Source: Loxodes magnus
Taxonomy: Eukaryota; Ciliophora; Karyorelictea; Loxodida; Loxodidae
Direction: 5' to 3'
DNA: 64,000 nucleotides
Assembly (NCBI GenBank): GCA_946699065.1
Contig: CAMPDV010000684.1
Location: forward strand, 1 to 64,000
Position numbers and translations under genes: made by a program. Shown piece by piece: positions 5,385 to 48,726 of this stretch (position 1 is the stretch's first letter; every line of letters starts with the position of its first letter). The notes beneath the pieces were generated by a model. It saw only the letters and a program-made list of their open reading frames with translations, had not been told where the DNA came from and searched no databases.

Positions 5385-5635
5385 TTGTCAACTTAGAGTA
5401 ATTAAAGTCTTCCATTTATATGCTTACATTTTAAACTTTTGCATGTATACTTTATAAGTTAATAAATTGTATCTTTTAAATTAATTAATAAAATTATATA
5501 ATTAATTTTTCTCATTTTTGTTCTCTAATTTAAAACTTAAACTAGATTTTTACATTATTATAAAATTAAATTTTATTACTATTCATTTTTACTTTTTATT
5601 ATATTTAATTCATTTTTTAAATTAACTTTACTTTT

Positions 5636-6900: not shown

Positions 6901-7447
6901 TAAAAATTTTTATTTACTTTCAGCCCTTAAATTTAGTTTAAATTCATAAACAAAGAAATTACCCTTCTGACATTTTTACCAACGAAAATATATAATTTTA
7001 TTTAAAATTTTTAATAAATAATAGTTTGATATATTTATAAAATAATTGAATTTACAACTATTTACTTTTTATTTATATTTTCGATATAACTCTTTTATTC
7101 TATTTAACATTTAAAGCTTAAATAAAATTTAATCTAATAAATCTATTTAAATTTAACATTAATATTATTCCTTTAAAATCTAAAATTATTATTCCTTATT
7201 TAAATTAAAATAAATTAAAGATGTATTAAGAGTAATATTATAGTTACAATTAAATATCTATTTTTAATTTGTTTATGATAATAATAGTTTTACTTATATT
7301 TTATTTTAATTTCTAAAAATAGTATACATTTTTCTATAGAAATTAATATATAATAATATTTAAAATAAAGATAATCCTAATTTTTAGTTTCTTTTTTGGG
7401 TTTATAAAGAAAAAATTAATTTTGTTTATTTATTTTATTTAATTAAA

Positions 7448-8482
7448 ATGTTTCTCTCAAAGTTAAAAGAGTATAGAGATAAAGAGATAGGGGAGAGTAA
7501 TAGAGATACTATTAACTCTGAAAAGTTTGTATTATTTGTTTAAATCATTAGGAATTCCTTTTGGAGTGATGCTATCCAATTTGCAAATTTTATAGAAAAA
7601 GGAATTTAGATTAATTTTATAGCCTAATCTTTACAGTTTAAGTATCATTCTTAAATAATTGTTAGCAGCATTATAAGTAATAATATGTCTGTCCAAAAGA
7701 ATATAGTGTCCATTAAGCAGAGAATAAGTTAATTAGAAGAGCTTGTATTTACAGTAAGCCAAATATGATTTTCAAATACAGTTAGATGCTCATTTAACAT
7801 CTCTATGAAATGAATTAATTTCTTCTCTCTTAACATACAATCAGCTTTAAGTATATTTGATACCAATCTAGCTTCACCTCTCAATTTTTATTAGGTTTTA
7901 TGTCCTTTGAAGTTCATTAAATAGAAACCTAAAATTCTTACTAAATTCCTTCATTCAATATATAAGCAAAGAAATTTGAAATTAATATAGTAGAAAATTC
8001 TATTTTAGCAATAATTAGAAGAGCTTAGTATAAGATATAAAGGTAAAAGATTTCTATTGTATGCATTAAGCTAATATTTAGAATATAAAAGATCTATAAG
8101 CATTGAGATTATTTCAATACCAGTACAACCATAAAAACTAATGCTCATAAAAGGAAACTAAAATGTATAAAATTAAAAGTTGATAAGATTTACATAAAAA
8201 GGAATTTAGAATCCAAGGAATAAACACAATATTGTAAAAAAGTTAATAAATTAATTCTCTGAGCCAACAAAAGAGGAGCTATTTAATTTATTGAGCAAAT
8301 TCAATTAATTGATTAAGTAAGTTTTGCTTAATGAACTGAGATAAAAAGATATTATATTTTTATTATATGATGTAAATAATAAGATAATTTATTTTAATAC
8401 CTAGTATATCTATTATAAGTTTATGAAAGCTAAATAATGTAATATATCATTAGCGATTCACTTTTAAATCTCTCAAGTATGA
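7448..8482 (+). CDS. Unknown duplicated gene, copy 1 (344 codons, internal 75-codon deletion)
   Basis: The reading runs from ATG 7448 to a TGA at 8480-8482 with TAR=Gln. Two earlier TGA codons read as Trp (QIWFSN, MKWINF). It begins MFLSKLKEYRDKE and has a mixed, soluble-looking composition with an SQLEEL-type helix and a basic C-terminal half. The partner copy at 50527-51786 is 419 codons. The 225-nt difference is an exact multiple of three, and otherwise only substitutions were seen between the copies here. Frame preservation supports real coding. There is no recognisable domain or signal peptide. TAA/TAG are frequent, so it is invisible under the standard code. Confidence 0.55.
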
Positions 8483-11400
8483 TAAAACTATTTTAGCACA
8501 AAAATTACAATTAAGTAATTCAATTGAAAGTTTAAGTTATACCTTATTAAATTTTTAATTAAATATTACTATCTATATATTTCTCATATAGTTACCTATA
8601 TCTATTTAGATATTTCTAAACAAGTATTTAAATGTTAGTTTTCTCTCTTCTTTATTTTAAAGTATTTATAGTAAAGAAATGTCAAAAATATTTAAAAGTA
8701 TTTGTAGGATTTTATTTGTAAGATTAGGAAGATAAGAACTTAAGTTTCTTATTTAATGATCTCAAATAGAATTATGAATATAAAATTATTAATTTGATAT
8801 AGATTAATAACGTAAATCTTTATAATGCTTAACAAATTTGCTATATATTAAAGTAATGAATGAAATATTCTAAATATATCTATTAAATATTTCTTTTGTT
8901 ACTAGTTTATTTTGGAGTTATAAAAGTTTATCTTTGCAAAGGTTATTCTAAAGACTTAATAGTATAATTTATAATTAAAAATAGTTTGAATGATATTATA
9001 ATATAATTTCAAAGCAGATTGTAAGTGATTCTTCATTTAGATAATTTAAACTACAATTAATAATTTCCTAATTTCTATAAATACGTTTTCCATTCTATTT
9101 ATTAACTGCTAATTTCTTACTTCATGACTCTCATTATTTTTGTTTGTTTATTTAAGTTAATATCTCTAGTAGCAATATTGAATTATAGTCCTAAAATAAT
9201 AACCCTTACACAACAGTTTCTATATTTTCTCTATAGAATTAGAAGCATCTGAAATAAATTAGTATGAATAATGAATGTTAATTTCAACATAGCTAAATTA
9301 ATATAATTAAATGATTAGGCACTTAAACTTGTTCTATAATAGTTATAAGAATATTTTTATATATAGTAATTAATAAAAAACATCTATAAATAGTCTTCTT
9401 TACTAACTCCATAGTTCAGATTATATGGATTAACCAAATTAAATTTATTTATAAGTATTTACTAAAACTAGAAAAGAAACAATTAATTAAACTAATTTTC
9501 ATAATGAACAGAGAACTCTAAAATATATTCGAACTAAACGCTTCCAATAGTTAAAGATTGAAAAATAGAATAAGATTGATTTAATTAAGGTATTAGAAGA
9601 AGAAATATCACTAAATATTAGTCTTTACCTTACATATTAAATGACTAAGATTAAGACTACAAAAATTTTTATTAGCTGAGAATAAATTAAATCTAAAGGA
9701 CTCAGTTATGTTGGCATGGTAATAAAATGTCCATATAATATCAATTTTAATATTTGAAATGCTAAGATTAGCTCTTACATCTCTCTTATATCTAAAAGTA
9801 TTTATCTTAAGAAAATATTTAAAAGGTATATAAAACTGTTGGATTATGTAGTTTTAAATTATATGTATAAAGTAAAATTAGGATAGAAATAGAATATATT
9901 ATGATAATGGGCTTAGATTAAAAAATCTGGTATTAGTGTAGATAAAATGAAAAGATGGATTTGTAAAAGAAATTATAAGTATTTCATTATATAAGCGACA
10001 TATAAAAGAATTACATAAAAGGTTTATAGAAATTTTATTAATACAAATATATAAAAATTAAGGGATTTTAACTTCAAAAAGTCATACAATTAAAAGAGTA
10101 CTTTAATTAAAAAATCTTAAAGCAATTACATAATTATAGTTTTGATTTAATTTTTTTGTAATATTCCATTAGCTTTCCAAAATGAATAATAATGTACCTT
10201 CCTTTAAAATATCAAAATGCCAAATTTAGTAATTTAGATAATCAAATTTTTATTATCTTAAGTAATTAAAATTTATTTTTGACGTTTCTTAGATCTCTCT
10301 ATTTTAATAAATCAATAGTTATGCAGTTTTTTATTATTGAAAATAATAAAGAGTTTAAGTCAAGTTTTTGTACTTTAATTATAGTAAAAATATTATCAAT
10401 CTTCATCTGAAGCTAATAATATATTCCTTGTGATATTAAGTAGCAAAAGTTTAGTTCATTAATATTTTTAAATTTAGTTGATTAAAATTAAATTTCTGAT
10501 TGGTTCCTTTTTCAATTATGACTTATGATATTTATCTAAACTCTATATTATTGAAGATGGATAATTGAATATTTTATATTATCTTATTTTGATTAATCTT
10601 AGATATTAGTAATTCTATTCTAATTTTATTATTTTTAAGGAAAATATTTTTCAAATGCTATAACTTTTTTCTTTGCAAGCCTTTAAAGTATTTATTTTTC
10701 TGCAAAGTAATCAAATTATAATTTAAAACTTGTACAATTTGTAATATTTATATTGTTAAGATAAAATTAGAAAACATTTTCTATAAAACTCTTAGGAGTT
10801 TTTTATTCTGATATGAAATTTATAACTAGTTATTTCCAGGAATGCTTAAAATATCTTAATTTAGTCGAGAGGTTAAGAAGTAATCTTGAGTGAAATTAGG
10901 GTTGAATTTTATGAAACATTCTGAGTTGCAATTTATTTTAAGGGCTCATAGTATATTTCTCTCTTATTTATAAGTGATAGATAAAATCAAAAAACTCTTG
11001 GTATAGTTTATACTTTATTTCGATTATTCAGCTTAATTCTAAATTATGATTTGAATTAAGTCAGAATTATATTCTACTAAATTATAAAATTTTCTATTAA
11101 GCTATTGAAAGACATAAAAGCTTAATTCTTACTTCTTGAACTTAATTTTTATGTAGTATCCCTTATTGAAAATTCCTTAAAATGAATAATTAACTCCATA
11201 TATTTGATATTATTCGTATGATAATATTTGCATGTACATCTTCACTTTAAAAATATTTTATTCCATTTCTTTACTTAAAGGTATCATCTATTTCTTCAAT
11301 CCCTTTTTAATGTATACTTCTGTTTATTTAGTCACATTAAAATTTCATTTTTCTTTAAGCTTTAGTCTATTTATTTTCCTATAAATAATGCTATTCTATT

Positions 11401-12550
11401 TATTTTATATAAGTTCCCATGAATACTTTACTAGTTTTTATTGCATTGCACCCTTCTCCATAAGATATTTCTTCTCTCTAAAAATAAATCTACTTACAAA
11501 AAATATACCGAAGCTCGTTTGCTTTTTAATCAATTTTCAACTTTATACATACTCCATTCTTTCCCTTTATCTTCCGTATCTTAATTTTGAAAAATTAGAA
11601 TTTATTGTATTTATTTTTGTTAAAAAATTAAAAGTAAAATTAAAAATTTTTTAGAATGAAATTGTATAAAAATATTAAAAGCATAAAATTAATAAATTTA
11701 CAATTGTTATACAATTTACTTAAAAATAATCTAATTTAAGGATTTAAAATATTTATAGTATTATTATTTTATTTATACAAGTAATTAGTTTTTTATTGTA
11801 TTAAAATGTATAAAAGGTTTATATAATTATTTATAATTTAGTTATTTTTATTATCTAATTTTATTTAAATCCTTTTTATTCCAAATTTATATTTTATTTT
11901 ACTAAACATATAAAATATACAATTTAAGTTCAAGTTTTATATATCAATCTTTATTAAACTTAATTTTATTTTTCATATATATTAAAAAAAGGGAATCAAG
12001 ATATAGTATAAAAAAATAATAAATGTTTAATTAAACCTTTAAATATAAATTAAAATATTATGATAAATCTAAAATAAATAGATAACAAAAGAGATATTTT
12101 ATTGTAGTTTAAATTAGCATTAATAAATCAAAGATTAAATTAAAGCATTATCTACCATTTATAACATTTATTCTATCAAACGGTGTAACAATTATTATGT
12201 TACATATAATAATAAACTTTTTTATCATTAAGAGTAAAATTCAATCTTAATTTAATTAAATACATACTAAATTTTTATTTCTTTTAAAATTTAAATTCAT
12301 AAAAGTATTAAAAATAATTAATAGTTACTAAATTTTATTAAAGAGGTAAATAAAAGTAAAAATATAACTTTGTTATGATTTTATAAATATAGGAAATTTA
12401 ATAAATATAAAAATATGTTAAATAAAAAACCAAATATATTGATATTTAACAAAATATAAATTTATTATTCATATTTAATAAGATTATTATTTAACTCTAT
12501 ATAAAGATTAAGGATTTTATTAATGGTTAAATTAGTTCTTATAAAAAGTA
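8483..12550. other. AT-rich DNA with possible coding patches
   Basis: This is mostly AT-rich DNA with no recognised family. Two patches read as protein: 9420-9640 (+), containing TKTRKETINQTNFHNEQ, and 9650-10080 (+) in the next frame, containing LAENKLNLKDSVMLAW. I could not join them with a convincing small intron. Small indels separate the copies here (52660-53400), so a decayed gene is possible. From about 10150 to 12550 I see nothing I can support. Confidence 0.35.
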
Positions 12551-13680
12551 TTTACAAATATTTCTTATAATAATAATAATAATGTAAACTAAATGTTAAG
12601 AGTTTTGGAGTTCTTTGGGATTCCAACCGATTTCACTCTGCCTTTTTTTTAACGAGGATGTATACCACGGCCTTTTTTTGAATGTGGGTGGCTACCACAA
12701 TGAATTTTCCATGTTACCACTAAATAATTTCTATTTATAAATTCCTGAGTCGATTATTCAAAGTTTTTTTAACATCCTTCATGTTTTTATTTCTTCTCTT
12801 TTTTTCAAATTTTATCATTTTTAACAATTTTTTAATAAGTGATATTTCGACCTACAACATCAACAATTTGTTGTCTATTTTTTTTTATTCAACTAAGGCA
12901 AAAATAATTTTTCTATTTGTTCTATTCTTTTAATTAGACTTTTATCAACATTTTATTCTATATTTATTTCTTAATCTTTTGCTAAGAAGGGAGGACTTCA
13001 TACTCATGTTTATCCCTTGTTTGAAATTATTTTAAGACTGAGTATAGAGCTATTGTTCTGTCACAATATTGTTTTATATAAGCAATTTCCTAAGAATTAA
13101 TAGTTCGTTATTTTAATCCTCAATTTATTCATAAGCTCTCTAATTCTTTCTCCTTGATTATATGTTTCTTCTTCATATTTAGAAATTAATTTTTTCATCT
13201 TTTCCATTTCAATTGAAAGCGAAGTGCTCTCATTAACTTGTCCAACCATTACTTTGCTTTCTGAAGAGGAGCTTGATAAGTGTTCCATTGATTTCTACTT
13301 CTTCTCTAGTTCTTTGTTAACTCTTCTTCTTGCGTTCCTTGCCTAATTTTTAGATAGTCGAATGTTCTATTCCATTTCCATTTTTTTTTACAAATATTTC
13401 TTAGATGTTGTAATTAAGGAATATTAACAAGCTACTTCAGAAAAATTAATTATGAAATAGATAAAAAAATAAAACATTATGCAAAATTATAATTTAATTT
13501 CCTTAAAAATTTCTAGCAAATTAAAAAATTTATAACTTAGATTGAACAAATTGAAATAAATAGAAATATATGGTAATATATTTAACTCTATTTAAGCTAT
13601 TAACATTAAGCTAAAGTAAATATATTTTAAATTTTTACAATTCTAAAATCATATTTAATTAGATTATCTTTAATTCAAAT
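12480..13680 (+). repeat. LINE 5'-leader-like AT-rich repeat (interrupted by the 12568-13386 insertion)
   Basis: The 12480-12567 plus 13404-13680 sequence recurs at 55800-56160, 59860-60200 and, more diverged, 18830-19260. Each copy lies just upstream of an ORF1 start (13728, 56210, 60309, 19266). Shared landmarks are a TTAGTTCTTAT-like stretch, GT/CAATTAAGGAA, ATGCAAAATTATAATTTAA and AGCAAATTGAA. I infer a conserved 5' leader or promoter region of this LINE group. Confidence 0.55.
12568..13386 (-). mobile_element. Inserted ORF1-type retroelement, antisense, with 17-bp target-site duplication
   Basis: The insertion is absent from copy 2 (empty site near 55870-55885). It is flanked by TTTACAAATATTTCTTA at 12551-12567 and 13387-13403. 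On the minus strand it starts near 13380 with ATG and reads MEQNIRLSKNQARNARRR, then a Ser run (LSSSSS), a charged coiled coil, and GQTWVWSPP. In a second frame it gives a basic C-terminus, KKGRGIHPRQKKGRV. The 3' end is AACATTTAGTTTAC plus ATT repeats. The parts match the element at 4189-5384 and, at the WVW motif, those near 31400 and 60850. It has one apparent frame change and no RT. Confidence 0.75.
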
Positions 13681-15400: not shown

Positions 15401-17300
15401 AACAATTATTCTTATTATTCAAAATATTCTAAGACGCATTTTTTTTCCCTTTTCATTTTTACTTCTTATGGGCTATTCTATTCTCTTATTTTGTATAAAA
15501 ATTTTATTTGCTAAGTAACATGATATTTACTTAATGTTCTACTTTTTTTTTTCAAATCTCACTTCTATTGAATTTTCTTTATTTTTTTCATTTTCTATTA
15601 TTTACTACTTTTTCATGCGTTCATTTTTTTAAATGCAGATTCCATGTTTTACTTTTTCCAATTAGTTTTACTTTTATAAGACTTCTTCTTTTTATTTCTA
15701 TTCTTTTATGAAGGCTATGGCATCTAACTTATTCAAAACATCCTGCATATATTTTTATGTACTATTCTTTTCTTTTTATTCTATCATAGATGCATGTTTT
15801 TTATCTTCCATACATTTAAAAATCTAGCTATTATCATGTTAAATTGTTTTTGTTTTTTTTTATCCTTTTTTTTCAAGAATGATTTTGCCTTTTAATCATT
15901 GATTTTCATTTAAATTATTTCTTCACAATAGAAGTTTGCAAGTAGTTTAATTATCTATTCCGGTATTTTAGATTGCTTAAGATTTTTATATATATTTTCG
16001 TTGTACTGAGTCAACAGCTTTCTTAATATCCTTTTATATTGCTAAAATTAATTTTTTGTTCCGCTTTGATTATACCTATGCTATTCTTAGATTGAAGATT
16101 TATAGCGCTCATGATTTTCCTTTTTGAAACCATATTAGTATTCTCTTTCATCATTATGAAAATATCCTTGCACTTGCTAGAATACTAATCGTCAAAAATT
16201 TTAAAAGAATGTTTACTAAAGAGATTGGTCTATAGTTCATTGGGTTCATCTATCCTCCTTTATTTTATATTAATATTATATTAACATTTCATTTTTTAAA
16301 TGGATTCTGGTTTCTAGTCAACCAATTAGGTAATACGGTGCCTTCATGTCCTGCGTTGCAAGTACTCTTCCAATAGATGCCACCACAAACAAGTAAGGAT
16401 GTGCCCGATGTGTGATAAGCCTTACTTTTTTAAGGGTTCTCTCTATCGATGCGAAGGGTCGACTAAAGGGAACCAAAATCGAGATCTCAGAGTTATCCTG
16501 ATTTTACATGTCGCTATTCTGATTAGGAATTTAGAAAACAACAAAGACATGACTGAGATCCCAAATAACTATTATTTATAAGAATTTAATCTAATTGGGT
16601 CATTTGACTCAAATAATGGAATGTTCTCTAACTCCAGCCTTTGGAAGAATTTAAAGAGTGAATGCAATCAATTTTGATTATAAAAACGGAGAGATGAAGA
16701 TAAGAATCAAAGAGACCAGATGAAGCTAGAAAAATTTCTAGCCTATTATTAATAATTAAATTTGGTTTCTTTATTTTTTAGTTTTGAACTAAACAATGGT
16801 GGTACCACGCTAATATAAATTAATTTAATTTTATTTATTTATTTATTATTATTTCATCCCCTAAGTTATTGCTATCTCTTAAATCATTTTAGCTATCATT
16901 TTTTAAGTTACTTCTATTAACTTTTTCCCTCCTACTAAAATTGCTCCTACTTATATTTCATCAGGCTTTGCTGCTTTCCATTTCGTCAATTAGTTAATTT
17001 TTTCTCAAATTTCATATTTGTTTACCACTATTTGTCTCTTTTTTAAGTATTTAGTTGGTAAATTATTATCGCTATTTTCATATAACTGCTATCATTGGTT
17101 CCTGAAAACCTTAGCATCTTCTTTGATAAGGGTGCTAACTAATTATTTTTTCTATTAAGCTGATTTTTTAGTTTATTCCACATTTCTGTCAGTTTTCATT
17201 TATTTGCATTGTCATAAATAGGTCAAGCTAGTTTCTTTTATCTTTTTCCTTGATTAAATGTATTTTATCTTATTCTTTGGTATTCTCTATATTTCCTTTT
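15400..17300 (-). mobile_element. Antisense LINE reverse transcriptase fragment, split by a family-B SINE
   Basis: On the minus strand 17300-16850 reads toward the RT start motif (KAAKPDE, around 16970; GKAAGPDG in canonical LINEs). After the repeat at 16313-16830 it continues with RT fingers/palm sequence: VDSVQR, then IPEQIIKLLANFY, about 15930-16030. It is closely related to the antisense LINE at 56404-58110, which lacks the inserted repeat. It is 5'-truncated near 17300, has several frame changes, and I could not find the catalytic YADD-type motif. It is a decayed fragment. Confidence 0.65.
16313..16830 (+). mobile_element. SINE-like repeat, family B, copy 2
   Basis: This is a diverged copy of the repeat at 5636-6170, inserted in the antisense LINE fragment. 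The sequence at 56700-56770 shows the uninterrupted target. Flanks suggest an imperfect target-site duplication of about 14 bp ending ATTTCAT (before 16300 and near 16850). The tail is TTTA/TTA-rich. An independent insertion with the same 5' start as copy 1 argues for a true SINE rather than random truncation. Confidence 0.75.
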
Positions 17301-18343: not shown

Positions 18344-18659
18344 TTAATTAATTAATTTCAACTAAAAAAGTTTTTGGAATGGAAACTCCTTTCCGATTAC
18401 ACGACCCGACGCTCTCTTTTTATGGAATAACGGGGATATCCTTTTGTGCTCCAGGCACAGTTGCTAGGGAGCTCCAGTGCTATGAGCAGCCAGGTTTCAA
18501 GCCCCTACCAAGAGCGGATAATCTCAAGACAGCGTTCTCTTCAGAAAATGACTCTGACCAGGGACTTTCTCAGCGACAGGAAAGGAACTTGTTCCTAGCC
18601 ACAAAACCAGAAAGTTTAATCACGAAGGTCATTCTCAGCTCCCACCATCTTTCAATTAT
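18344..18659 (+). mobile_element. SINE-like repeat, family A, copy 2
   Basis: This is a full-length copy flanked by a 15-bp target-site duplication, TTCTCAATATAATAA (18329-18343 and 18660-18674). The A-box-like AGGCACAGTTG is at 18453-18463 and the B-box-like GTTTCAAGCCC at 18494-18504. The spacing of 41 bp is close to that in tRNA genes. The 3' end is CCACCATCTTTCAATTAT, as in copy 1, with no long poly-A. Confidence 0.85.
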
Positions 18660-19265: not shown

Positions 19266-21407
19266 ATGGACATGTACAAAAATTCGCAAGATTTCTTTCT
19301 TAGCGACTCTTCTTTATCTAAAAATAAAGAAGCTGCTTTCTAAAACGATGAGCATAGGCAGATGCTCAACTACTTTTATGAAATAGACATGGAATCGCTG
19401 CAACTTAAATCCGTTGATAATATCATGAAATTACTAAGAAATTTGCTAAAGAGCTGCAGTTAATGCCAAATTAATAGATATCTTCGAATTCCACTAAGAC
19501 AGCTTGGCAATTCTTTAAAACGTGGACATTAATTGAAGACTAATCTCAAATATAGGAAATATACTTATAGGTAAAAAGACTAGCTTGTTACTTCAACCTC
19601 TACGATGGTATCTAAAATATCCAATATACAGTAAGATACTTTAGATACTTAGGATATTTAAGATATTTCTTTAATTAAAAACTAAAATTAAATTTAAATA
19701 CAAAATTAATAAGAGACTATAAAAATTCAACAATTCAATACACAAAATAGCATTAAAATTCAATAGCAGATTTCAATAGACATTTAAACTGATTACTAAG
19801 AGAAGTTTGATATTACATACTTAACTGATCTTGAGATTTAAAATGCGTAACTTTAAGAAAAAATTGCAAAATTAAAATATAAAATTTAAAGCAAGATAGA
19901 AGAGGCAAATACTTTTGAAAATTAAAGGCTAAGTGAAAGCAAAAATCTTAAATTTCGAATTTAAAAACTCATAACTAAAAATAATTCTCTGTAAGAAAAG
20001 CTAATACATATATATGAGTAACACAATAAAGAAACTTTAAACATTAAATCACAATATAAAATACACTTAGAATAATACCAAAATTATTTATTTAAAGCTC
20101 AAAAGTAAATTAAGAAAATCTAGAATAAAAATTAAATCTTAAGGTTTGATAATTAGTAGAAATAGTTAATGCTTTAGTCCAAATAATTTGTAAATAATGC
20201 TACAAATAAATAATAATCAATATAAACGAATACTGATCTTTCCTTAACTTAAATATAAGAATTGGAAACTTAGAGTTAACTTCTCACTTAGACTTAATAG
20301 CAAAGTATAGTAAAACAAGCTATGCTTAGTGAGGAGCTAATGAACATGACACAATCATTTAAACTACAAGATGAGGCAATACTTGCTTCCAAGTAAGAAG
20401 CCCAAAATATTATAAACAACTTGGTTACTCAAATTTAATTCATTCAAGCTGAATTGAGTAAATGTAATTTGAGACATAATGAAGTATAATAACATCTTAG
20501 GGAGGTAGAAACTCTTAACTAAAATCTCAAAGGTGAAAATTTTCATTTATTAAGCAAAATAGATCAGATCGACTAAAAGGTACATTCACTCACAGTCAAT
20601 TGCCAGTAACAACAGGCTTAATGTTAATTATTACAAAATGAGAATTATTAAATATCATAGGAACTGAGCTTTCAAAAAAATAAATATGACAAATCAGTCA
20701 AAAGCCTTTTTACATAAACAATCACTCCTCAGGCATAGAATGAATAAACATAAATTGAAATTCAATTCAGCAACTAAATTTCTCAAGAAACTATATCGAC
20801 TTTAGATTCAACTACTGATACAGACTTATTATTCTTAGATCAATCTACCTAGTGCGACTTCGTTGAATTGAAGTATACAAAGTTGTAGAATTTATATGAT
20901 AAATTAAACAAATAATTTATCAATTAAGATATATAGAGTGTCTACTAAAGGCTTGTCTCGTGTTAATAAAAATAGTTTTGAGAAAAGGAAACACAAACCT
21001 GTTTAAAAATTAATAGCAAAGATGCTTGAACATGAACAGAAAAAGGGAAATTAATAAGCAATTATAGTTAGACAAGAATCATGGAGTTAAAGAATTAGGT
21101 TATTTAAACTTAAAATTCTATCAAGGCTAAGGATGAAGGAACAATAACAGTAGTTACCAATCATTAGCTAGTTGCTTCTTAACAAGAACTATAAATCACA
21201 AAATAGAATAATGGAAAACTGTAAGAGTAATATAATGAATTAAACGGATTATATGTTTAACTCATGCAGGATTATGAGCATCAAGTAGAATTGAAGCTAA
21301 ATGTTTATGCATAAATTTCAGAAATATAGAGAAAATAATAAGATGTTAAAACTCAATCTTACTTGAAAGAAATAATGAAACGCTTCAACATAAACACTTT
21401 TAATTGA
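19266..21407 (+). CDS. LINE ORF1, long coiled-coil protein
   Basis: The reading runs from ATG 19266 (MDMYKNSQDFFLSDSS) to TGA 21405-21407, about 713 residues. From about residue 140 on it is dominated by Gln/Lys/Glu/Leu heptad-like sequence (for example LQEKIAKLKYKI and ELSKCNLRHNEVQ), which predicts long coiled coils. Three TGA codons near 20980-21030 read as Trp. For 19439-19580 the next frame also looks protein-like, so one frame slip there is possible. LINE ORF1 proteins bind RNA and often multimerise through coiled coils, but this one is unusually long and shows no zinc knuckle in this frame. Confidence 0.65.
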
Positions 21408-22209
21408 TTAAATTTAAGAAGATTAGCAGATTGAAATTTTAGAAAATTCAAATATCTAGACATCATATGTGATGAATTGGGATAGCCAAACAAAATTTGG
21501 AAAGAGAAGTTGAAGAGATGCCAAATTTAACCAAGACACTTTAAACTTAAAATAGTCAAAATTTGGGTTTAATGAAGTAAATATTGAAGAGATTTTAAAT
21601 AAATACGAATTTAAAGACGCCTAACTAATTCAATTTATAAGGTCCAATAAATGATGAAATTAGAATCTTTTCACTTTAGTAGGCAATAGATTTATAACTT
21701 TATCTTGCAAACTAAACCATGCTACGTGTGATGGAAATGAAATAGATATAAAAATCGATAATAAATTGAGCGAAAAGTACGATTCATTAACATTATTCAT
21801 TATAATAAGTTACAGGTAATATATCAAAAATTGCCCCAAATTGCTTAACATATAAATTCATCAAAATGAGAAGATTCTCTGTATTTATGAGCCAGGAATA
21901 AAAGGAGGAGTTTTGACTTCATCATAAGAAATTCATCGATTTATAAAAAACGGAAATTATATAGTTAAAACGCTGCTATAAACCGATTTTAGAATTAACT
22001 ATATTGTCCTTTAAAAAATAACTAAGACTCAAAGGAGGTGTAGAGAACAATGTAGAATAACCATATTAATGCAAACAAGAATTTGGGAATTAAGAAATAA
22101 AGATGCCAATCGATAAGCAAAGAGAGATAGGCATAATAAAGCTTGGACATATTAACATAAATGGAATTGGAAGCAAGCAATTAAACGTGGAAGAATTTAT
22201 ACGAAATAA
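21391..22209 (+). CDS. Second LINE frame between coiled-coil ORF1 and EN-RT ORF
   Basis: In frame 1 a protein-like reading of about 270 codons follows the end of the coiled-coil frame. It includes NWDSQTKFGKRSW, NEVNIEEILNKYEF, CKLNHATCDGNEID and a basic C-terminus, CREQCRITILMQTR. It ends at TGA 22207-22209 and so overlaps the start of the EN-RT ORF by about 100 nt. It could be a separate protein, or the C-terminal part of ORF1 reached by a +1 shift near 21390, where frames 0 and 1 both look coding. I do not recognise a family. Confidence 0.5.
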
Positions 22210-25200
22210 TGACTTAGACATTTTCTCAATTAATGAAACGTGATAAAAATAAGACTATCCTCCAATACTTATTAATGGATATAGGACCTATTTCAAGAAC
22301 TCAGGAAAAGGAGGAGGAGTTTGCTTAATTGTTAGAGATTAACTTAATAGCACGGAATAGAATAGCATATAACAATTAGCTCAAGAGAGGTTCGTTACAA
22401 TCAAACTAGATAATATATTCATAACATCTTGTTACATGCCAGATAACAGCAAGAGTGAAAATATAAAAGACGAAGCATATGAATATATAAATGTATTCCT
22501 TAATTCTTTTCCTGACAACTCACATATATTATTAGGAGATTTTAACGCTCTACTATAAGACTTTGGGGATAACCCTATTAACAACTATGACAATACAAAT
22601 AGATTCTAAGAATTCATTCTCTAAAACGATTTAGAAATAATAAACGATGCAAATATGAACACATGTTTACATAAAGGGAATAAAAATATGTATTGCAACG
22701 ATTATATTGTCATCAGTAATCACTTGAATATGAATTAATTTAGAAATTTTCAGGTTCATAATTATAGCTTATTTTCAGATCATATTCCATTCACAGTTGA
22801 ATTTGTATACCATACTCATCTTCAAACTGAAAAAATAAAAGTGAGAAAGTACAAAATAAGTAGACTGTAGGATCCTATTGATAGATTTATCTATTAGAAT
22901 TCATTCAAAGATTAAGTAGAAGTATTCTTCCTAATTGATAGAGATAACTTAGAATATTAATACACTTATATTAGAGACTGCATTTAGAACAATGCAGATT
23001 AAGTTTTAGGCTCATTTATCCCAGACCCGAAGTATAATAGACTTCCTAAGGACCTCACATAAAAATATATCGAAGCAAAGAGAGCAAATTAATTGTACAA
23101 AGAAACTTTAGCATATATAGGGAGGAATAACTAAGAAATCATTGATCTTCACTAAAGAGCGAACACATTATGAAAAAGCTTTTAGCATCATTTATGAAAA
23201 TTTAAAAAACAAAAGGCCAAAAACAGATTCCTACTCCTCAATGAAACCACAAAAGATATGTTTTCTTAAGCAAAGAAAATACTTAACCCTAGACAAAGAA
23301 ATTTGATGAACTTTAATAAGGAATTGAAGGACTAATTTGTAGAAGCATGGGAAAATTAGGTATTTAGCAAGCATTCGAATTTAACTAACCAATAGATTGA
23401 ACTAAGTAACTAGAAAATAGATGCAATTTATGAAAATAACATAGAAATTCAAAATTAACCCTTTTCTTACTTATAAAATTTAGATCCTTTTACAATAGAA
23501 GAGATTATCTAACTTATAAGTCTAATTCCTAATGGTAAAGCAGCAGGGCCAGATGGAATAAAAGGAGAACTGCTAAAATATGGAGGATATTATCTAGCGT
23601 TGATGCTTCATTCTTTTATAAATAACATGCTTAGAATTGGAAGGATTCCTGAAGAGCTTAATACTTCTATCATAATCCCCATTTTCAAAAAAGGAAGTAA
23701 AGACGATTGAAAAAACTGACGCCCTATTTCCCTTATCAATACTATTTTGAAATTATATGATAAGGCCCTTACGAAGAGACTCTACTCAATAATTTATGAA
23801 AGACAGTTAATCCACTCAAGCTAAATGGGGTTTATGAAGAACAAATAAACCACCTAATAAATATGAGTGATCCAATAAATCATAGATCTTTATCGAAAAC
23901 AAGCGAAAGGAAAAACTAAACTGATTGCAACTTTAATTGACGTAGAGAAAATGTTTGATTCTATTGAAAGAAGAATTCTTTTTAAATAACTAAGAAGAGT
24001 CAAATTACCACTAGGTCTCATCTTGGCTTTAGAATCATTTTATAATAACTTAACTACTTCCTTTATTATAGACGGAACAAATTCTAAGAAATTGAAATTT
24101 AGCAATGGAGTGATGTAAGGAAGTTCGCATGGACCTGTGCTTGCATTATTATACTATGACATTGTCATTAGACATATAGAAAACAAAGGAAAAATATTAG
24201 GATTCAGATGTGTTAATTTTAAGAATAGGTTCACTTGTAGAGGTTGAGCTGACGATTTAATACTATTATCGAACTCATAAAAAAATATGTAGTCACTTAT
24301 TAATGAAGCAAACTCCATTTTCAATTAGACATTTCTTAAAATAAATGTCTCCAAATGCGAAACGTTATAGTTTTTAAAAAAGAAAAGCAAAGAAACAAAA
24401 CTAGACTTAAAAATAGGAGACCAAGCAATAATTTAGAAACAGCAAGTCACATATTTAGGGGTGATCCTTCACCAAAAGAAGAATCTAATTAACCATTGCA
24501 AATACGTTGCTGCAAACTATCTTTCAGCAATTAAAAAGGCAGTATTTGCATTATCAAGATATAGAAACGTAACACCTTGAAATTTCAAAATGCTTTGTAG
24601 ACTGTTCACGCTTCCTAAAGCAGAATACGGTGGGGACTTAATACCTTGGACTGTGCAGTATGGAATAAATGGAATCTTGAACAGAATTGAAAAGAGCATG
24701 AGATTAATAGCCAGAAAAGCCTTTTAATCAGCAGGAAATACGTTTAATGAATCATGCTTTGTAGACCTCAACTGGATGCCATTCAAACACATGATGGCTC
24801 TTAAGTATTTCAGGTTTTTCTTTAAGATTAGAAATGAAAGCTAAAATCAACCTTAATCATCTATTGGAATATTGTCTGAGAATAATTATAAAGAGGGATA
24901 TCAATATTATGATGAAGTTTAGAAACTGGCCTCATTTTATAAAATAGAAATTGATAATAAAGAGCACAATAACAACTTAATTTAATTCAGTAAATATGTG
25001 TAGACATAAATATAAAAGACATATTTTGAATTAGCTCTTTCAAGATTCAGCAGAATGCCTACTGCATAAATATATACAGAACAATTTTAAAACCTAAGAT
25101 AATTCCCCAAAATAACATACACGAAATTAAACAAAAAATATTTGAAAGAAATAATTTGTATCTATAAGATTAGAAGCCAGTCTTACGCATTTCGAAAGAC

Positions 25201-25783
25201 TCTGAAAGATCGAAATTATATTATTGAAAACCCTTTTTGTATATGCGGAGAATATGACACTCTCCAACATGTAATGGAGTGTATATATTACATTGATATA
25301 AGAGAATGATTGTTCTCCAAAATTGGTTAATGTGATATTTTGAAACTAATAAGTTACGATTAACTATATATAAACTCTTTTCCTAAGAAAAAAATAGAAA
25401 TGGTGGATGAATAAATAAAAATATTCATTCAAATGTTTATTAAAAGGAGGCGAGAAATTCTATAACAAGAGAAAGAAGAAGAGCAATACGAGAAATAATA
25501 AAAAGAAGCAAATCTAAGAATAGAAAATTTTAATGAAGAGAATGAAGAATAATAAAAACAAGAAAACAAAGAATAAGATGTCCAACAAAATTAGATGTAA
25601 AATGATGAGGAAGAAGAAGATTGGAACGAAGAGGAAAACGATAGCGAAGATGAAGAAGAAGAAGATTGACAACAGAAAATAGAAAAAAATGAAAGTTAGC
25701 TTGAAAATGAACAAGAAAGGAAATACTTAGAAGAAAAAAAAAACCTAAACTAGAAAATTAGTTCTGAAGAGCAATAAACTTGA
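22103..25783 (+). CDS. LINE endonuclease-reverse transcriptase, 1226 codons, intact under ciliate code
   Basis: ATG 22103 (MPIDKQREIG) to TGA 25781-25783 is one continuous frame with about ten TGA codons read as Trp and very many TAA/TAG as Gln. An AP-like endonuclease is at the N-terminus: INETW with Trp47 from TGA, GDFNA at 145, SDH at 225. RT motifs follow: GKAAGPDG around 478, RPIS after DDWKNW, LIDVEKMFDS with Asp613, QGSSHGPVLA, and the catalytic box as WADD at 715 (TGA for Trp where most LINEs have Tyr or Phe). A CCHC motif, CICGEYDTLQHVMEC, starts at about 1046. The last 110 residues are Glu/Asp/Gln-rich, an unusual tail. It acts by target-primed reverse transcription in the nucleus. 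All key residues seen are present. Confidence 0.92.
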
Positions 25784-25892
25784 TATACAATAACATTTAA
25801 AAACAATATAATACCTTCAATTGGAAGAACATATTCTGAAAATTGAAGGTACCACAAATTTTTTTAGTTAAATTTAAAAAATATAAAATGGA

Positions 25893-26290
25893 TATCGGCC
25901 GCGTCAGAAAACTAATAGGTAATCTGATGCAGTGTATATTGCATTGCGAGTAATCTCGCACTAGATACCACCACGGAGAAGGATGGATAAACTCGGTTGA
26001 CATGTCTAACTTACCCCGAAGGTTCTCTCTAGCAGTATGAAAGTTTTACTGACGGGTCTTCTAATTAATGACTTAATAACTAATTCTTATTTAGACCTTA
26101 TTCTGAAAGATTGAAGCATTTGACTCAAGATTTAAGAATAATTTTTAATAAGAAGATTCTCCATTTGGAGAAGATGAAGTGACTCTTTGGACGAATAGAA
26201 TGAAATCAAGATTTAGAGAAAATTTTTTTAATTTTAAATATTAATACTGAAAGAGCTGCGAGCCAACAAGGTGTTATGCGCTGCTCTATA
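25893..26290 (+). repeat. LINE 3' region homologous to family-B SINE
   Basis: 25893-26070 matches the head of the family-B repeat (TAGGTAATCTGATGCAGTG; TAGATACCACCAC; GGTTCTCTCT). The terminus near 26255-26290 (GAGCCAACAAGGTG, TTATGCGCTGCTC) resembles its end. It begins about 110 bp after the RT stop. Either the SINE derives its ends from this LINE's 3' UTR, or a SINE has been captured here. Confidence 0.6.
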
Positions 26291-26640
26291 ATCATATTTA
26301 TTTAATATAAATAAATAAGGAGGAGCAATCTTCTAATTGGCATTGACTTAAGATTTGATACCAGGAAGAACCATAGGCGAAGAACCTAACAAGAATCTTG
26401 GTAGGAGCCAAGAGAGAAGACAAAGACTGAAGAGATATCAAGTAATTTTTTTGATGAAAGATACCAGATACTAAGGTCTCTAAGGGAGCATTCTGATAAT
26501 AGCTCTATGGAAGAAAAGACTCACAAAAATGCTAGCACTGTGGAAGACTTCAGAAAATAATTTTTTAACTTTAAAAATATTTATTAAAAAACCACGTACC
26601 ATTGTGATGCTACGCGCTCTCTAGTCTTTTTTATTATTTA
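26291..26640 (+). repeat. Second 3'-terminal segment in tandem with the LINE 3' end
   Basis: This segment ends with a similar AT stretch followed by ACCACGTACCATTGTGATG and CTACGCGCTCTC, parallel to the end at 26255-26290. It begins with a similar TCTTCTAATT motif. It is followed by TTTA-rich sequence. It looks like a tandem or secondary copy of the LINE 3' terminus, but the middle has diverged. Confidence 0.45.
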
Positions 26641-33062: not shown

Positions 33063-33462
33063 AGTTTTGATAATTTATTATATTTAATAAAACATTTCTT
33101 AGTTAATTATTTATTTATTTTTAATGATACTAGCTTATAATATAATTTGATAAGTCTTTATTTCGTTGAAAGAAAATTATATTTTAATTACAAAAAAATA
33201 TAATTCAAAAAATTTATTTTATTTGATAAAGCACAGTTTTAAAATGCCCAATCTTAAAGTTTAATTATGCTTTATAAAAAAATAAAATAAATAGCAATAT
33301 TAAAAAATTTATCTAGTTTAAAATAGATATATTGAAATATTAGAAATATTTAAGATCAAAAAAATTAAAAGTTATATCTAGAATAAAAATAAAGTTAAAC
33401 ATTTTTAAAAATCTTTATTAATGATAATTAGAAAACACAATTAAACTAAAAATTGTATACTT

Positions 33463-33766
33463 AAAAAGATGGTGGGAGCTGAGAATGACCTTCATGAGTA
33501 AGCTTTCTGGTTTTATGGCTAGGAATAAATTCCTTTCCTGTCGCTGAGAAAGTCCCTGGTCAGAGTCATTTTCTGAAGGGAATGCTGTCTTTGAGATTAT
33601 CCGCTCTTGGTAGGGGATTGAAGTCTGGCTGCTAATAGCACTGGAGCTCCCTAGCAACTGTGCCTGGAGCACAAAAGGATATCCGCGTTATTCCATAAAA
33701 AGAGAGCGTCGAGTCGTGCAATCGGAAAGGAGTTTCAGGTCCTAAAAATTTTTTAGTTGAAATTAA
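33463..33766 (-). mobile_element. SINE-like repeat, family A, copy 3 (inverted)
   Basis: On the minus strand this matches copies 1 and 2 over the whole length, from the TTAATTTCAACTAAAAAA head to the CCCACCATCTTT end. The B-box-like site is TTCAATCCC here. The tail differs (TTTAAGTATAC), and I could not see a clear target-site duplication, so it may be older than the other two. Confidence 0.8.
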
Positions 33767-34484
33767 TTAAAAATAAAAATAGTAAAAATATGTAAAAAAT
33801 AATTTTTATAAAATAAAATTAATAGAAATATAAATTATAACTATATTAAAAATAGTAGAAATATATTTACTATTAAAATGTATTAAAATTTTTGATGTTT
33901 ATTTAAAAATAAAAAATTTAAATTTCTACATAAAAGGTATATTTTTATATAAATTTAAAAAAAATTTTCTAATAAATAAAATTAAGTATCTAATTAAATA
34001 TCTAATCCAAAAGAAGTTATTATCTAAAATGATGAAAAAAAAACATTTTCAAAAGTCATGATAAAAAGGATGAATAATAATATAATCTTAAAAAATATAA
34101 GCAAAAAATGGACCTATAGAAAACTAAATAATAAGATGAATAAAATTAAAATAAACAAAATTAAAAAAAAGTATCAAATGTATAAATCGTAAAAACAAAT
34201 AAATAAAGAAATAAAAATTTTAAAAAATAAATCAGAAATAAAACAAAATAAATTTTTTTTATCATTTACAGAAAAAAAAACTTTCTTTCTAATTTACTTT
34301 AAACAAATTAAAAAAAAAAATATATATTAATTAAAAAATTAAAAAAGTGAAATTTAAATCTTGGGAAAAATTAAATATAAAAAAAAATATAAAAAAAATA
34401 AAAAAACTAAATTAAAAGAAAAACTTATAAAAAAAATATAATAAAATAAAATACGGCAATGAAAAAAAGAACAAGAAGAAAATC
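33767..34484. other. A-rich spacer upstream of the MORN gene
   Basis: This is A-rich with long A runs. It may hold the promoter and 5' UTR of the following gene. Part may be coding if the start lies further upstream (ATG codons near 34030 and 34459 are out of the main frame). Confidence 0.4.
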
Positions 34485-37400
34485 ATGAAAATTCATTAAA
34501 AAAAAAAAAATGATATTTTTGTATAAGATTAAAAAATTATAAGTCTTAATAGTTGAAAAAAAGTTCCTAAATAAATAACTGGAGATTAATATAAGGGGTA
34601 AGAAATAAATGAAGATTAAATAAATAATTGAATACATAAATACTCAAACGGAAAAAACTGAACAGGTGAAAGATATATAAATTAACCGTGAAGTGGAAAA
34701 GGATATATTAAATATAGTAATGGAGATAAATATGATGGAATCTTATTGAAACAAAAAAGAATGGGTAAAGGATTACTAAAATATAAAACCGGAGAAATTT
34801 GCGAAGGTGAATGATATAATGATATACCTTGAAATGGAAAAGGAGTTTTTAAATATATAAATGGAGATCGATATGAAGGATAATGATCAAATGGTAAAAG
34901 AGAAGGTAAAGGAATACTTAAATACTCAAATGGTGATGTTTTTGAAGGCGATTGAATTTAAAATAAACCTTGAAATGGAAAAGGAGTTTTTAAATATATA
35001 AATGGAGATCAATATGAAGGTATGATAACAGATGGTAAAAGAGAAGGTAAAGGAATACTTAAATACTCAAATGGTGATGTTTTTGTAGGCGATTGAATTT
35101 AAAATAAACCTTGAAATGGAAAAGGAGTTTTTAAATATATAAATGGAGATCAATATGAAGGTATGATAATAGATGGTAAAAGAAACGGTAAAGGAATACT
35201 TAAATACTCAAATGGTGATGTTTTTGTAGGCGATTGAATTTAAAATAAACCTTGAAATGGAAAAGGAGTTTTTAAATATATAAATGGAGATCAATATGAA
35301 GGTATGATAATAGATGGTAAAAGAGAAGGTAAAGGAGTACTTAAATACTCAAATGGTGATGTTTTTGAAGGCATTTGAATTTAAAATAAATCTTGAAATA
35401 GTAAAGGAGTTTTTAAATATATAAATGGAGATCAATATGAAGGTATGATAATAGATGGTAATAGAGAAGGTAAAGGAATACTTAAATACTCAAATGGTGA
35501 TTTTTTTGAAGGCGATTGAATTTTAAATGAACCTTGAAATGGAAATGGAGTTTTTAAATATATAAATGGAGATCAATATGAAGGTATGATAATAGATGGT
35601 AATAGAGAAGGTAAAGGAATACTTAAATACTCGAATGGTGATGTTTTTGAAGGCGATTGAATTTAAAATAAACCTTGAAATGGAAATGGAGTCTTTAAAT
35701 ATATAAATGGAGATCAATATGAAGGTATGATAATAGATGGTAATAGAGAAGGTAAAGGAATACTTAAATACTCGAATGGTGATGTTTTTGAAGGCGATTG
35801 AATTTAAAATGAACCTTTAAATAGAAAAGGAGCTTTAAAATATATAAATGGAAATCGATATGAAGGTATGATAATAGATGGTAAAAGAGAAGGTAAAGGA
35901 ATACTTAAATACTCAAATGGTGATGTTTTTGTAGGCGATTGAATTTAAAATGAACCTTGAAATGGAAATGGAGTTTTTAAATATATAAATGGAGATCAAT
36001 ATGAAGGATAATGATCAAATGGTAAAAGAGAAGGTAAAGGAATACTTAAATACTCAAATGGCGATGTTTTTGAAGGCATTTGAATTTAAAATAAATCTTG
36101 AAATAGTAAAGGAGTTTTAAAATATATAAATGGAGACCAATATGAAGGTATGATAATAGATGGTAAAAGAGAAGGTAAAGGAGTACTTAAATACTCAAAT
36201 GGCGATGTTTTTGAAGGCGATTGAATTTCAAATGAACCATGAATTGGAAATGGAGTCTTTAAATATATATAAATGGAGATCAATATGAAGGATAATGATC
36301 AAATGGTAAAAGAGAAGGTAAAGGAATACTTAAATACTCAAATGGCGATGTTTTTGAAGGCGATTGAATTTCAAATGAACCATGAATTGGAAATGGAGTC
36401 TTTAAATATATATAAATGGAGATCAATATGAAGGTAATATAATAGATGGTAAAAGAGAAGGTAAAGGAGTACTTAAATACTCAAATGGCGATGTTTTTGA
36501 AGGCGATTGAATTTCAAATGAACCATGAATTGGAAATGGAGTCTTTAAATATATAAATGGAGATCAATATGAAGGTATGATAATAGATGGTAAAAGAGAA
36601 GGTAAAGGAGTACTTAAATACTCAAATGGCGATGTTTTTGAAGGCGATTGAATTTCAAATGAACCATGAATTGGAAATGGAGTCTTTAAATATATAAATG
36701 GAGATCAATATGAAGGTAATATAATAGATGGTAAAAGAGAAGGTAAAGGAGTACTTAAATACTCAAATGGCGATGTTTTTGAAGGCGATTGAATTTCAAA
36801 TGAACCATGAATTGGAAATGGAGTCTTTAAATATATAAATGGAGATCAATATGAAGGTAAGATAATAGATGGTAAAAGAGAAGGTAAAGGAATACTTAAA
36901 TACTCAAATGGCGATGTTTTTGAAGGCGATTGAATTTCAAATGAACCATGAATTGGAAATGGAGTCTTTAAATATATAAATGGAGATCAATATGAAGGTA
37001 AGATAATAGATGGTAAAAGAGAAGGTAAAGGAATACTTAAATACTCAAATGGCGATGTTTTTGAAGGCGATTGAATTTCAAATGAACCATGAATTGGAAA
37101 TGGAGTCTTTAAATATATAAATGGAGATCAATATGAAGGTAAGATAATAGATGGTAAAAGAGAAGGTAAAGGAATACTTAAATACTCAAATGGCGATGTT
37201 TTTGAAGGCGATTGAATTTCAAATGAACCATGAATTGGAAATGGAGTCTTTAAATATATAAATGGAGATCAATATGAAGGATAATGATCAAATGGTAAAA
37301 GAGAAGGTAAAGGAATACTTAAATACTCAAATGGCGATGTTTTTGAAGGCGATTGAATTTCAAATGAACCATGAATTGGAAATGGAGTCTTTAAATATAT

Positions 37401-40250
37401 AAATGGAGATCAATATGAAGGATAATGATCAAATGGTAAAAGAGAAGGTAAAGGAATACTTAAATACTCAAATGGCGATGTTTTTGAAGGCGATTGAATT
37501 TCAAATGAACCATGAATTGGAAATGGAGTCTTTAAATATATAAATGGAGATCAATATGAAGGATAATGATCAAATGGTAAAAGAGAAGGTAAAGGAATAC
37601 TTAAATACTCAAATGGCGATGTTTTTGAAGGCGATTGAATTTCAAATGAACCATGAATTGGAAATGGAGTCTTTAAATATATATAAATGGAGATCAATAT
37701 GAAGGCACGCTAATTGATGGTAAAAGAGAAGGTAAAGGAATAATTAAATACTCAAATGGCGATGTTTTTGAAGGCGATTGAATTTAAAATAAACCTTGAA
37801 ATAGAAAACGAGTTTTTAAATATATAAATGGTGATCGATATGAAGGTATGATAATAGATGGTAAAAGAGAAGGTAAAGGAATACTTAAATACTCAAATGG
37901 CGATGTTTTTGAAGGCGATTTAATTGAAAATATGATTTAAGGATTTGGACATTTTATTTACTTAAATGGAGATCAATATGAAGGTACGCTAATAGATGGT
38001 AAAAGAGAAGGTAAAGGAATACTTAAATACTCAAATGGTGATGTTTTTGAAGGCGATTGAATTTAAAATGAACCATGAATTGGAAATGGAGTTTTTAAAT
38101 ATATAAATGGAGATCAATATGAAGGTATGATAATAGATGGTAAAAGAGAAGGTAAAGGAGTACTTAAATACTCAAATGGTGATGTTTTTGAAGGCGATTG
38201 AATTGAAAATATGATTTAAGGATTTGGACATTTTATTTACTTAAATGGATATCAATATGAAGGTACGATAATAGATGGTAAAATAGAAGGTAAAGGAATA
38301 CTTAAATACTAAAATGTTGATTTTTTTCAAGGTTATTGTAAAAATGTTATTTTTTAAGGTATTACTTAAAAAAAATACTATAATGGGGATTTCTATGAGG
38401 GATAATGATTAAAAGGTAAGAGAGAAGGTAATGGTATTTTTTTTTAATCTAATCTTGATATTTGAGATGGCAAATGATTTAATGATAACCTTAATGGTTT
38501 AGGATTTTTAAAATTTTATTCTGGTTTTTAGTTAGTAGGTTGTTTTAGTGAATCTTAAATTTAGTATATTTAAAAATTATTTTTTTTAAATGAATAGATC
38601 TATATCAGTAATTCTTAGGGTTAATGTTAGTGATTATAAAGATCTAAATTTTTAAATCCTTTTCTCGATCCTTGTAATAAAAGTAATTTTTTAAGAAGAA
38701 GTGATTTATTACAGATGGTAATTTAATATTGAATTTTTTAAGATATATGTAAACTACAGTAAACTGACAAGTTTTTTAAATTTTTCTAATTTAGCTTTGA
38801 TAAATTAAGCATTTTGTATGAATAGGAGTAGGAAAATTATATGATTTCTAAAATAAAATGACTTTTGAAACAAATAGTATATTGCAACTTTAAATGTCTT
38901 ATAATAAATTCTAAGTATTTTTCTTAAAATATAATGAACTAAATTTAGTTGCTTTTGTGTTTAAGTATTTTAGTGAAATAATATTTGTAATAGAAGTAAA
39001 AAATAAATTATTTTTAAGAATTTTATTTATATGCTTATGATAAAATTTTTATTATAAATGACTAATTTCCTTTACATTTTCTTAAGAAAATAGCCCTTAA
39101 AGGATGATATAAAGATGATGATTTATATTTTCTTAAAAATTGCTCTTAATTGGAGAATCTGGAAATAGTACATTATTCAAAAAATAATAGTTTTCAAGCA
39201 TTTACAGGCAGCTTTTTAGCAAAGTTTTGTAAGTAAATTCCTTTAAAAGTTTTAAAATTAAAAAGCTAATTTATAAAAAATAAACTAATTATTGAATATT
39301 TAAGGTTAAATGGAGAGTTAATATAGTAATTAGACATTAATCAGAATTAGTTTTTCCCTTAGATTATTTAGTACTGTCCTAATCTTAAAAAATGGAATTT
39401 ATAAATAAAAAATAACGAAGACTCAATTTTAAATTAGATTAAAGGACATCATTTATAATTTTTAAACTTAAATGGCAATTTTAATGTAGAATCATTTTAT
39501 AACTTTATATAATAGAATGAAGTTTAACTCTTATAAGTAAATATAAGCAACTGTTAGTATTTTAGCGATGATAGTTTACTAATGCTATTATATAAAACAC
39601 CTAATTTATAAAGTTTGTATTTAAGGGATTTAGATTTAATTGGAGATGTTTCCATATAACAAATCGGAGATTTTTGTTTAAAGTTAGAAAAGCTAAGTTT
39701 GAAAAATTTGCCTTTAATAAATGATGATACTTTAAGAATTGTTTTCAGAAAATGCAAAAATCTTAGTTTAATAAAACTTTCCCACTTTTAAGATTTAAGT
39801 TAGGAAACCATTAAAATTATAAGGGAAAATAGCTAGAACTTACAATCTTTAAGCTTAATATATGTTAATGAAATTAACGAAGATCATGCTAGAGAAATAA
39901 TACAAATAAAAAGACTTAAAATATTAAAGTTATACGATATTGAGTTATAGGATAATATTATTGCTTTAATATTTTAAAACTGTCATAATCTAGAAATTCT
40001 AGAGTTATATACAATTAACAAACTTAATTGAAAAGTATCACCAATTTGAGATTCATTTAATTCTTCTTATCCTATTTTTAAGAATTTAAAAAAGCTAAAA
40101 TTTGGTATTCATATTAAAATTTTGAAAGCTCATTTAATAGAATTAAAATAAAAATTCTAAAATATAAAGATTAAGATAGAAGACGAAGAGATTGGGAAGC
40201 CACATGAATTTGATGGATACATCGGAAGTATAAATTTCAACTTGAGATGA
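34485..40250 (+). CDS. MORN-repeat protein with C-terminal leucine-rich repeats (F-box-like/FBXL-type)
   Basis: The protein is about 1900 residues under TAR=Gln and TGA=Trp. N-terminal partial MORN repeats are followed by about 25 units of 47 residues, each two MORN motifs (YSNGDVFEGDW.., YINGDQYEGQW..GKREGKG), to about 38310. The MORN Trp is nearly always TGA. A segment near 38640-38800 (SDLLQMVIQYWIFQDICKL) is F-box-like but weak. Then come at least six LRRs of the Cys-containing FBXL/AMN1 type, 39380-40130 (LQSLYLRDL, LEKLSLKNLPLINDDTL, LEILELYTI). It ends at TGA 40248-40250. MORN arrays usually bind membranes or scaffold cytoskeletal structures, and FBXL proteins select ubiquitin ligase substrates. 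Three array units carry an extra TA, which breaks and then restores the frame. ATG 34485 is the first in frame, but the start is uncertain. Confidence 0.85.
34700..38310 (+). repeat. Tandem array of 141-bp units encoding paired MORN repeats
   Basis: About 25 head-to-tail units, nearly identical in blocks. Sub-types alternate between EGMIIDGK, EGNIIDGK, EGKIIDGK and EGQWSNGK versions, and between NKPWNGKG and NEPWIGNG versions. Runs of identical subtype (36500-37650) point to recent unit duplication or conversion. Two variant units with DLIENMIQGFGHFIYLNG occur near 37920 and 38200. Confidence 0.95.
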
Positions 40251-48484: not shown

Positions 48485-48726
48485 TTTGTCAACTTATAGT
48501 AATTAAAATGTTTCATTTATATGCTTACATTGCATGTATACTTTATAAGTTAATCAATTGTATCTTTTAAATTAATTAATACAATTATAAAATTAATTTT
48601 TCTCATTTTTGTTCTCTAATTCAAAACTTAAACTAGATTTTTACATTACTATCAAATTAAATTTTATTACTATTCATTTTTACTTTTTATTATATTATAA
48701 TTCATTTTTTTAATTCACTTCGCTTC

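Follow-up and report, generated by a model that had tools for sequence, protein, structure and literature searches.

A LINE ORF2 frame probably written in an all-sense genetic code, with TAA and TAG read as glutamine and TGA as tryptophan

The window analysed here is a stretch of 64,000 nucleotides whose forward strand carries, at 22103-25783, a long frame that we identify as the second open reading frame (ORF2) of a long interspersed nuclear element (LINE), with an endonuclease, a reverse transcriptase and a C-terminal CxC...HxxxxC motif. The frame comprises 1,227 codons and holds 76 standard stops: 48 TAA, 17 TAG and 11 TGA, ten of the latter internal and one forming the last codon, which is likely the stop. 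It also contains 4 TGG, 27 CAA and 6 CAG codons. In the standard code, no run free of stops longer than 124 codons was found in the window. Because an all-sense code leaves every frame open, an open frame alone is no evidence for such a code, and the evidence comes from homology.

Translated with TAA and TAG (together TAR) as Gln and TGA as Trp, ORF2 matches the Pfam families RVT_1 (7e-32), Exo_endo_phos (2.6e-10) and Exo_endo_phos_2 (1.1e-9). With X at all stops it still matches LINE-1 ORF2 protein chains (1.2e-27) in a single frame over residues 16-848; past residue 848, its intactness depends on the triplet phase signal described below. The endonuclease domain (Exo_endo_phos, 22151-22783, forward strand) spans 8 TAA, 1 TAG and 1 TGA, and the RVT_1 domain (23696-24469, forward strand) spans 8 TAA, 4 TAG and 4 TGA (codons 536, 539, 588 and 715). 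An APE-type endonuclease and RVT_1 share one frame, which identifies a non-long-terminal-repeat retrotransposon. The LINE-1 ORF2 protein of PDB 9k6g, which we take to be human, likewise joins endonuclease and reverse transcriptase in one frame, although it is distant in sequence and the element in the window is written in an all-sense code. All three standard stops are thus read through in 22103-25783, as a sequence-only reading of this DNA had proposed, with domains lying across in-frame stops and the chain match surviving even when the stops are masked.

The meaning of TAR was scored by putting each of 20 residues at TAA and TAG, with TGA masked, and comparing the translations with Pfam profiles. 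On RVT_1, Gln scored highest (104.2 bits), followed by Glu (98.1) and Ser (97.0). With a flat prior, the posterior for Gln is 0.9955 when RVT_1 and Exo_endo_phos are summed and 0.96 when Exo_endo_phos_2 replaces Exo_endo_phos. Moreover, the ORF2 frame shows no significant shortage of TAA or TAG, and its TAA:TAG ratio does not differ significantly from its CAA:CAG ratio. The profile comparisons therefore support the earlier assignment of TAA and TAG to Gln.

What does TGA mean in this frame? In the corresponding scan, with 20 residues tried and TAR masked, RVT_1 gave Tyr 100.5, Phe 97.1 and Trp 96.9 bits, then Leu 92.8, and Exo_endo_phos ranked Trp best (37.6). The posterior from the LINE alone is 0.68 for Tyr, 0.26 for Trp and 0.05 for Phe. 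At the level of sequence profiles, TGA is shown to be an aromatic residue in the LINE. The sequence-only reading had placed TGA at the Trp of an ETW motif and directly before the ADD of the reverse transcriptase, and both positions hold: codon 47 (22241-22243) is the Trp of NETW in the endonuclease domain, and codon 715 (24245-24247) immediately precedes ADD in RVT_1. Its further assertion that every family motif is kept only if TGA is Trp does not survive the RVT_1 scores.

A second source of evidence is an array of MORN motifs at 34806-38471 on the forward strand, which is built of 141-bp units with two motifs per unit and was recognised by PF02493 matches and a motif pattern. At the conserved Trp position, the 48 motif starts that pass the pattern, which missed at least four further motifs visible in the array, read TGA in 27 cases, ATA in 17, TTA in 2 and CTA in 2, with no TGG. 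The units are near-identical tandem copies, and most hold a second TGA at a non-conserved position. Although PF02493 motifs occur in tandem, they do not share a single open frame. An identical additional TA is present in three units (near 36265, near 36406 and near 37675), a total of 6 bases, and about 1.4 kb (36260-37680, forward strand) is shifted before the frame is regained. When the array is aligned, stops masked, to a solved MORN1 chain, the best alignment sets the TGA of the conserved position against Trp at four of five places and Phe at one. The conserved position was scored separately in two motifs, with 10 residues each, only after the result of a scan of all TGA codons in part of the array (given below) was known. 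A motif whose only TGA lies at the conserved position scored Trp 37.4, Phe 35.5 and Tyr 33.6, and a diverged motif (38373-38462) scored Trp 22.1, Phe 20.0 and Tyr 18.2, with no match for Cys, Arg, Gly or Gln.

Combining the LINE with one MORN motif gives a posterior of 0.81 for Trp, and combining it with both gives 0.98, an upper estimate because the two motifs are paralogues. From the conserved MORN position and from known codes, we infer that TGA would mean Trp rather than Tyr or Phe. Of the earlier claim that TGA is Trp, the aromatic character is thus borne out by the LINE, and Trp itself is favoured only once the MORN positions are added. The MORN array had also been described as independent support, with about 50 motifs holding TGA at their conserved Trp. 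That description was too generous: the 21 filtered motifs without TGA have ATA, TTA or CTA, the units are near-identical copies in a broken frame, and the scan of all TGA codons shows no preference for Trp.

Two related insertions add a further family, one outside the sequence-only reading. The first, at 4190-5352 on the forward strand, is zinc-knuckle-like with its first Cys changed to Tyr and ends in a (TAT)n-type tail; the second, at 12568-13386 on the reverse strand, has a 17-bp target site duplication, an (ATT)n-type tail and a CX2CX4HX4C knuckle in which TGA is the second residue. Their translations are related (38% identity over 78 residues, E 5e-12). With stops masked, the ungapped first part of their alignment scores 123, against 49 for the best of 200 shuffles, and TGA there faces Tyr, Phe, TGA and Tyr. 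This pairing supports an aromatic meaning of TGA. The partners of TAR are K, K, TAA, I, R, S and L in this well-matched part and E, K, S, H, K, I and E in the N-terminal part. No reverse transcriptase was found in either insertion, and on sequence features they look like ORF1-only, non-autonomous retroelements.

Several results weigh against the assignments made above. TAA and TAG were scanned jointly, and the endonuclease profiles taken alone rank other residues over Gln (Pro in Exo_endo_phos and Glu in Exo_endo_phos_2). The LINE alone ranks Tyr 1.4 bits over Trp, with only five TGA codons lying within the two domains. When all TGA codons of 34560-36269 in the MORN array were varied jointly, with 20 residues tried, Met scored highest (229.2 bits), followed by Phe, Ile and Leu; Trp reached only 201.6 bits, with 11 of the 19 other residues higher and Ser tied. 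We explain this poor score by the second, non-conserved TGA of each unit. Where the zinc-knuckle alignment is gapped, in its N-terminal part (score 79; best of 200 shuffles 50), TGA faces Ser, Tyr, Arg and Ile. Published systems add two more points. Sense UGA makes up 10 of 1,226 codons in ORF2, whereas it is rare in Condylostoma (0.042%) and Parduczia (0.12%) (PMC4967479). In Loxodes magnus, UGA and UAA are depleted over about 20 codons before the stop (PMC11441545), unlike ORF2, which has a TAA two codons before its last TGA.

On balance, we give a probability of about 0.88 to the explanation that this DNA comes from the nucleus of an AT-rich, repeat-rich eukaryote, most likely one of the karyorelict ciliates related to Loxodes, that TAA and TAG mean Gln and TGA means Trp in its genes, and that 22103-25783 is a LINE ORF2 in that code. 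In such a cell, TAR would be decoded by transfer RNAs (tRNAs) for Gln with UUA and CUA anticodons and TGA by tRNA-Trp(CCA), and the ribosome would terminate at TGA only near the 3' end of the messenger RNA (mRNA), following the published karyorelict model. A tRNA search of the 64-kb window found none. In some ciliates, UGA is reported to be read by a tRNA-Trp(CCA) whose anticodon stem has 4 bp (PMC13092985).

A code of the Tetrahymena type, in which TAR means Gln and TGA serves as an ordinary stop, would make the LINE a dead copy carrying premature TGA codons. Such a code would suit the scarcity of TGA in the ORF2 frame (11 codons, where a first-order model predicts 29.7), the frame breaks in the MORN array, and a coiled-coil-like frame that is free of TGA for 570 codons before 20979-20981. 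However, the scarcity is that of a rare residue such as Trp, since TGA and TGG together make up 1.2% of codons, and the LINE has ten internal TGA and yet keeps a single frame over residues 16-848, and its domains are conserved. Chance TGA codons would be expected to arise mostly from Arg, Gly, Leu or Ser codons, and a dead copy would be expected to hold frameshifts. Instead, the TGA codons of RVT_1 jointly favour aromatic residues over Arg, Gly, Leu and Ser, and, where the two zinc-knuckle elements align best, Tyr and Phe stand opposite TGA. It is therefore unlikely that the LINE is a decayed copy in a host using TGA as its stop, and we leave the Tetrahymena-type code only a slim chance. Reading TAR as Glu, as in Blastocrithidia, is very improbable: Exo_endo_phos_2 alone prefers Glu (41.1 against 39.7 for Gln), but Gln leads by 6.1 bits on RVT_1, by 10.9 when Exo_endo_phos is added and by 4.7 when Exo_endo_phos_2 is added.

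The code of Condylostoma is NCBI table 28. It has the same sense meanings as those proposed here, with TAA, TAG and TGA all able to stop near the transcript end. Both zinc-knuckle insertions have an in-frame TAA a few codons ahead of their tails, which would suit such a code. In ORF2, by contrast, TAG lies 10 and TAA two codons before the last TGA, where Condylostoma depletes all three codons (PMC4967479). The TAA is also contrary to the pattern of L. magnus, and one gene decides little. A Condylostoma-type code keeps a small chance of being right, and the karyorelict code is the likelier one.

The all-sense code itself is not new. Reassignment of all three stops had been called established for karyorelicts and Condylostoma, and it is indeed published: Condylostoma magnum and Parduczia read TAA and TAG as Gln and TGA as Trp with context-dependent stopping (PMC4967479), and karyorelicts including Loxodes use table 27 (PMC11441545). 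The observation is thus correct and rediscovers a code that had already been described. The karyorelict code agrees in TAR as Gln, TGA as Trp and a repeat-rich genome, and the repeat and LINE load fits L. magnus, for which about 2,700 copies of RVT_1 and two or more LINE families, 5 to 6 kb long, are reported (PMC11441545). Introns of that species average 19.3 bp and its coding sequences have a GC content of 33.5% (PMC11441545). ORF2 differs from the karyorelict code entry in using TGA over TGG (10 against 4 inside the frame), and C. magnum shares the sense meanings and differs in that all three codons also stop there (PMC4967479). Amoebophrya sp. ex Karlodinium veneficum, a dinoflagellate relative, has the same code (TAR as Gln, TGA as Trp and TGA as sole stop; PMC6394959) and would be compatible by code alone. 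In Blastocrithidia all three stops are sense as here and TGA is Trp, but TAR is Glu (PMC12153298), and Gln fits better in the window.

All-sense codes demonstrate that where a codon lies in the message can distinguish a stop from a sense reading, and the LINE in the window is a natural test of termination where no codon is a dedicated stop. The window contributes an example from a genome with such a code: a retrotransposon that may carry two reading frames and that has a long 3' region. A triplet phase model was trained on 22103-25500, with only 25501-25783 held out. Of 24 windows of 150 bases between 22150 and 25749, 21 are phase-positive in the ORF2 frame, which over the held-out 25500-25783 scores 2.8 against -2.0 and -18.0 for the other frames. 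For the 857 bases past ORF2 the three frames score -12.8, -18.1 and -15.9, with scattered short positive windows of shifting frame; an extension of ORF2 to 26623, proposed by a gene-finding model, is unsupported by this phase test. The stretch at 25784-26640 (forward strand), which has no consistent triplet phase in any frame, is probably the 3' region of the LINE. GC content drops from 28% at 26500 to 22% at 26600 and 11% at 26700, and the phase signal of ORF2 ends at TGA about 0.85 kb ahead of this change in composition. A strongly folding RNA at 25860-26160 on the forward strand (z -3.78; on repeat -3.76, the lowest of 27 windows) begins 77 bases past the last TGA of ORF2; it has no Rfam match, and 26300-26600 shows no unusual folding (z -0.74).

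Upstream, 21463-22063 on the forward strand, about 200 codons in another frame than ORF2, may be a short ORF1. Its phase score of 1.9 weakly suggests so, the control percentiles being 1.0 (95th) and 4.9 (99th) and the bounds having been picked post hoc; the region (21451-22101) has no family match in Pfam or PDB. As an intron that would join this candidate to ORF2, four GT..AG stretches come into question, two of them with a length of 1 mod 3. Direct repeats flanking the LINE, looked for as a target site duplication, reach at most 11 bases, within chance expectation.

In the published model, termination is governed by how near a codon lies to the tail (PMC4967479, PMC11441545), and the probable 3' region after ORF2, at about 0.85 kb, differs from the median 3' untranslated region of L. 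magnus genes, at 41 bp (PMC11441545). It is a doubtful proposition, one to which we attach little probability, that a LINE in an all-sense code stops its ORF2 at a TGA about 0.85 kb short of the element's 3' end, ahead of the strong RNA fold. If the mRNA does run to the end of the element, nearness to the poly(A) tail could not by itself set the stop. The ORF2 stop would then have to be marked by an RNA structure or by an internal poly(A) site, and an upstream ORF1 in a different frame would pose the same problem inside the message.

Two regions on the reverse strand, 15928-16279 and 56707-56905, match the main LINE's reverse transcriptase weakly and with frameshifts (E 7e-4 and 0.005) and are apparently, to judge from these matches, fossils of a second LINE family. 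The first reads NYRPISL where the main LINE has N-TGA-RPISL. A search for relatives of the LINE in viral contigs gave seven pattern matches, none of them confirmed.

The coiled-coil-like frame, so judged by its composition, lies at 19266-21470 on the forward strand. Its 571 codons from 19269 to 20981 include 51 TAA, 17 TAG, no TGG and one TGA, the last codon, with further TGA downstream in frame. It has no match in Pfam or, over 19266-21595, in PDB. Across 20 plus 4 coding-like segments, a subset of the frames of the window, Pfam families above the curated cut-off occur only in the LINE and MORN segments. Matches below the threshold, such as AcrIIA4 (0.0069) in 56381-58411 and three in 25784-26640, were taken as chance; a PDB search of 56381-58411 gave no match, and an Rfam search of the window gave none either.

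A segment of about 12 kb is duplicated: 1-12567 recurs in pieces at 44288-55885 with 94 to 98% identity. The copies differ by at least three insertions, namely the two zinc-knuckle elements at 4190-5352 and 12568-13386, present only in the first copy, and 51328-51546 in the second. As a codon test the large duplications are uninformative, the copies being alike in all six frames in the rows inspected. A repeat of about 0.3 kb with 90 to 93% identity occurs at three places, approximately 4691-5018, 18347-18659 and 33453-33780, one of them inverted, and the copy at 4691-5018 sits within the insertion at 4190-5352.

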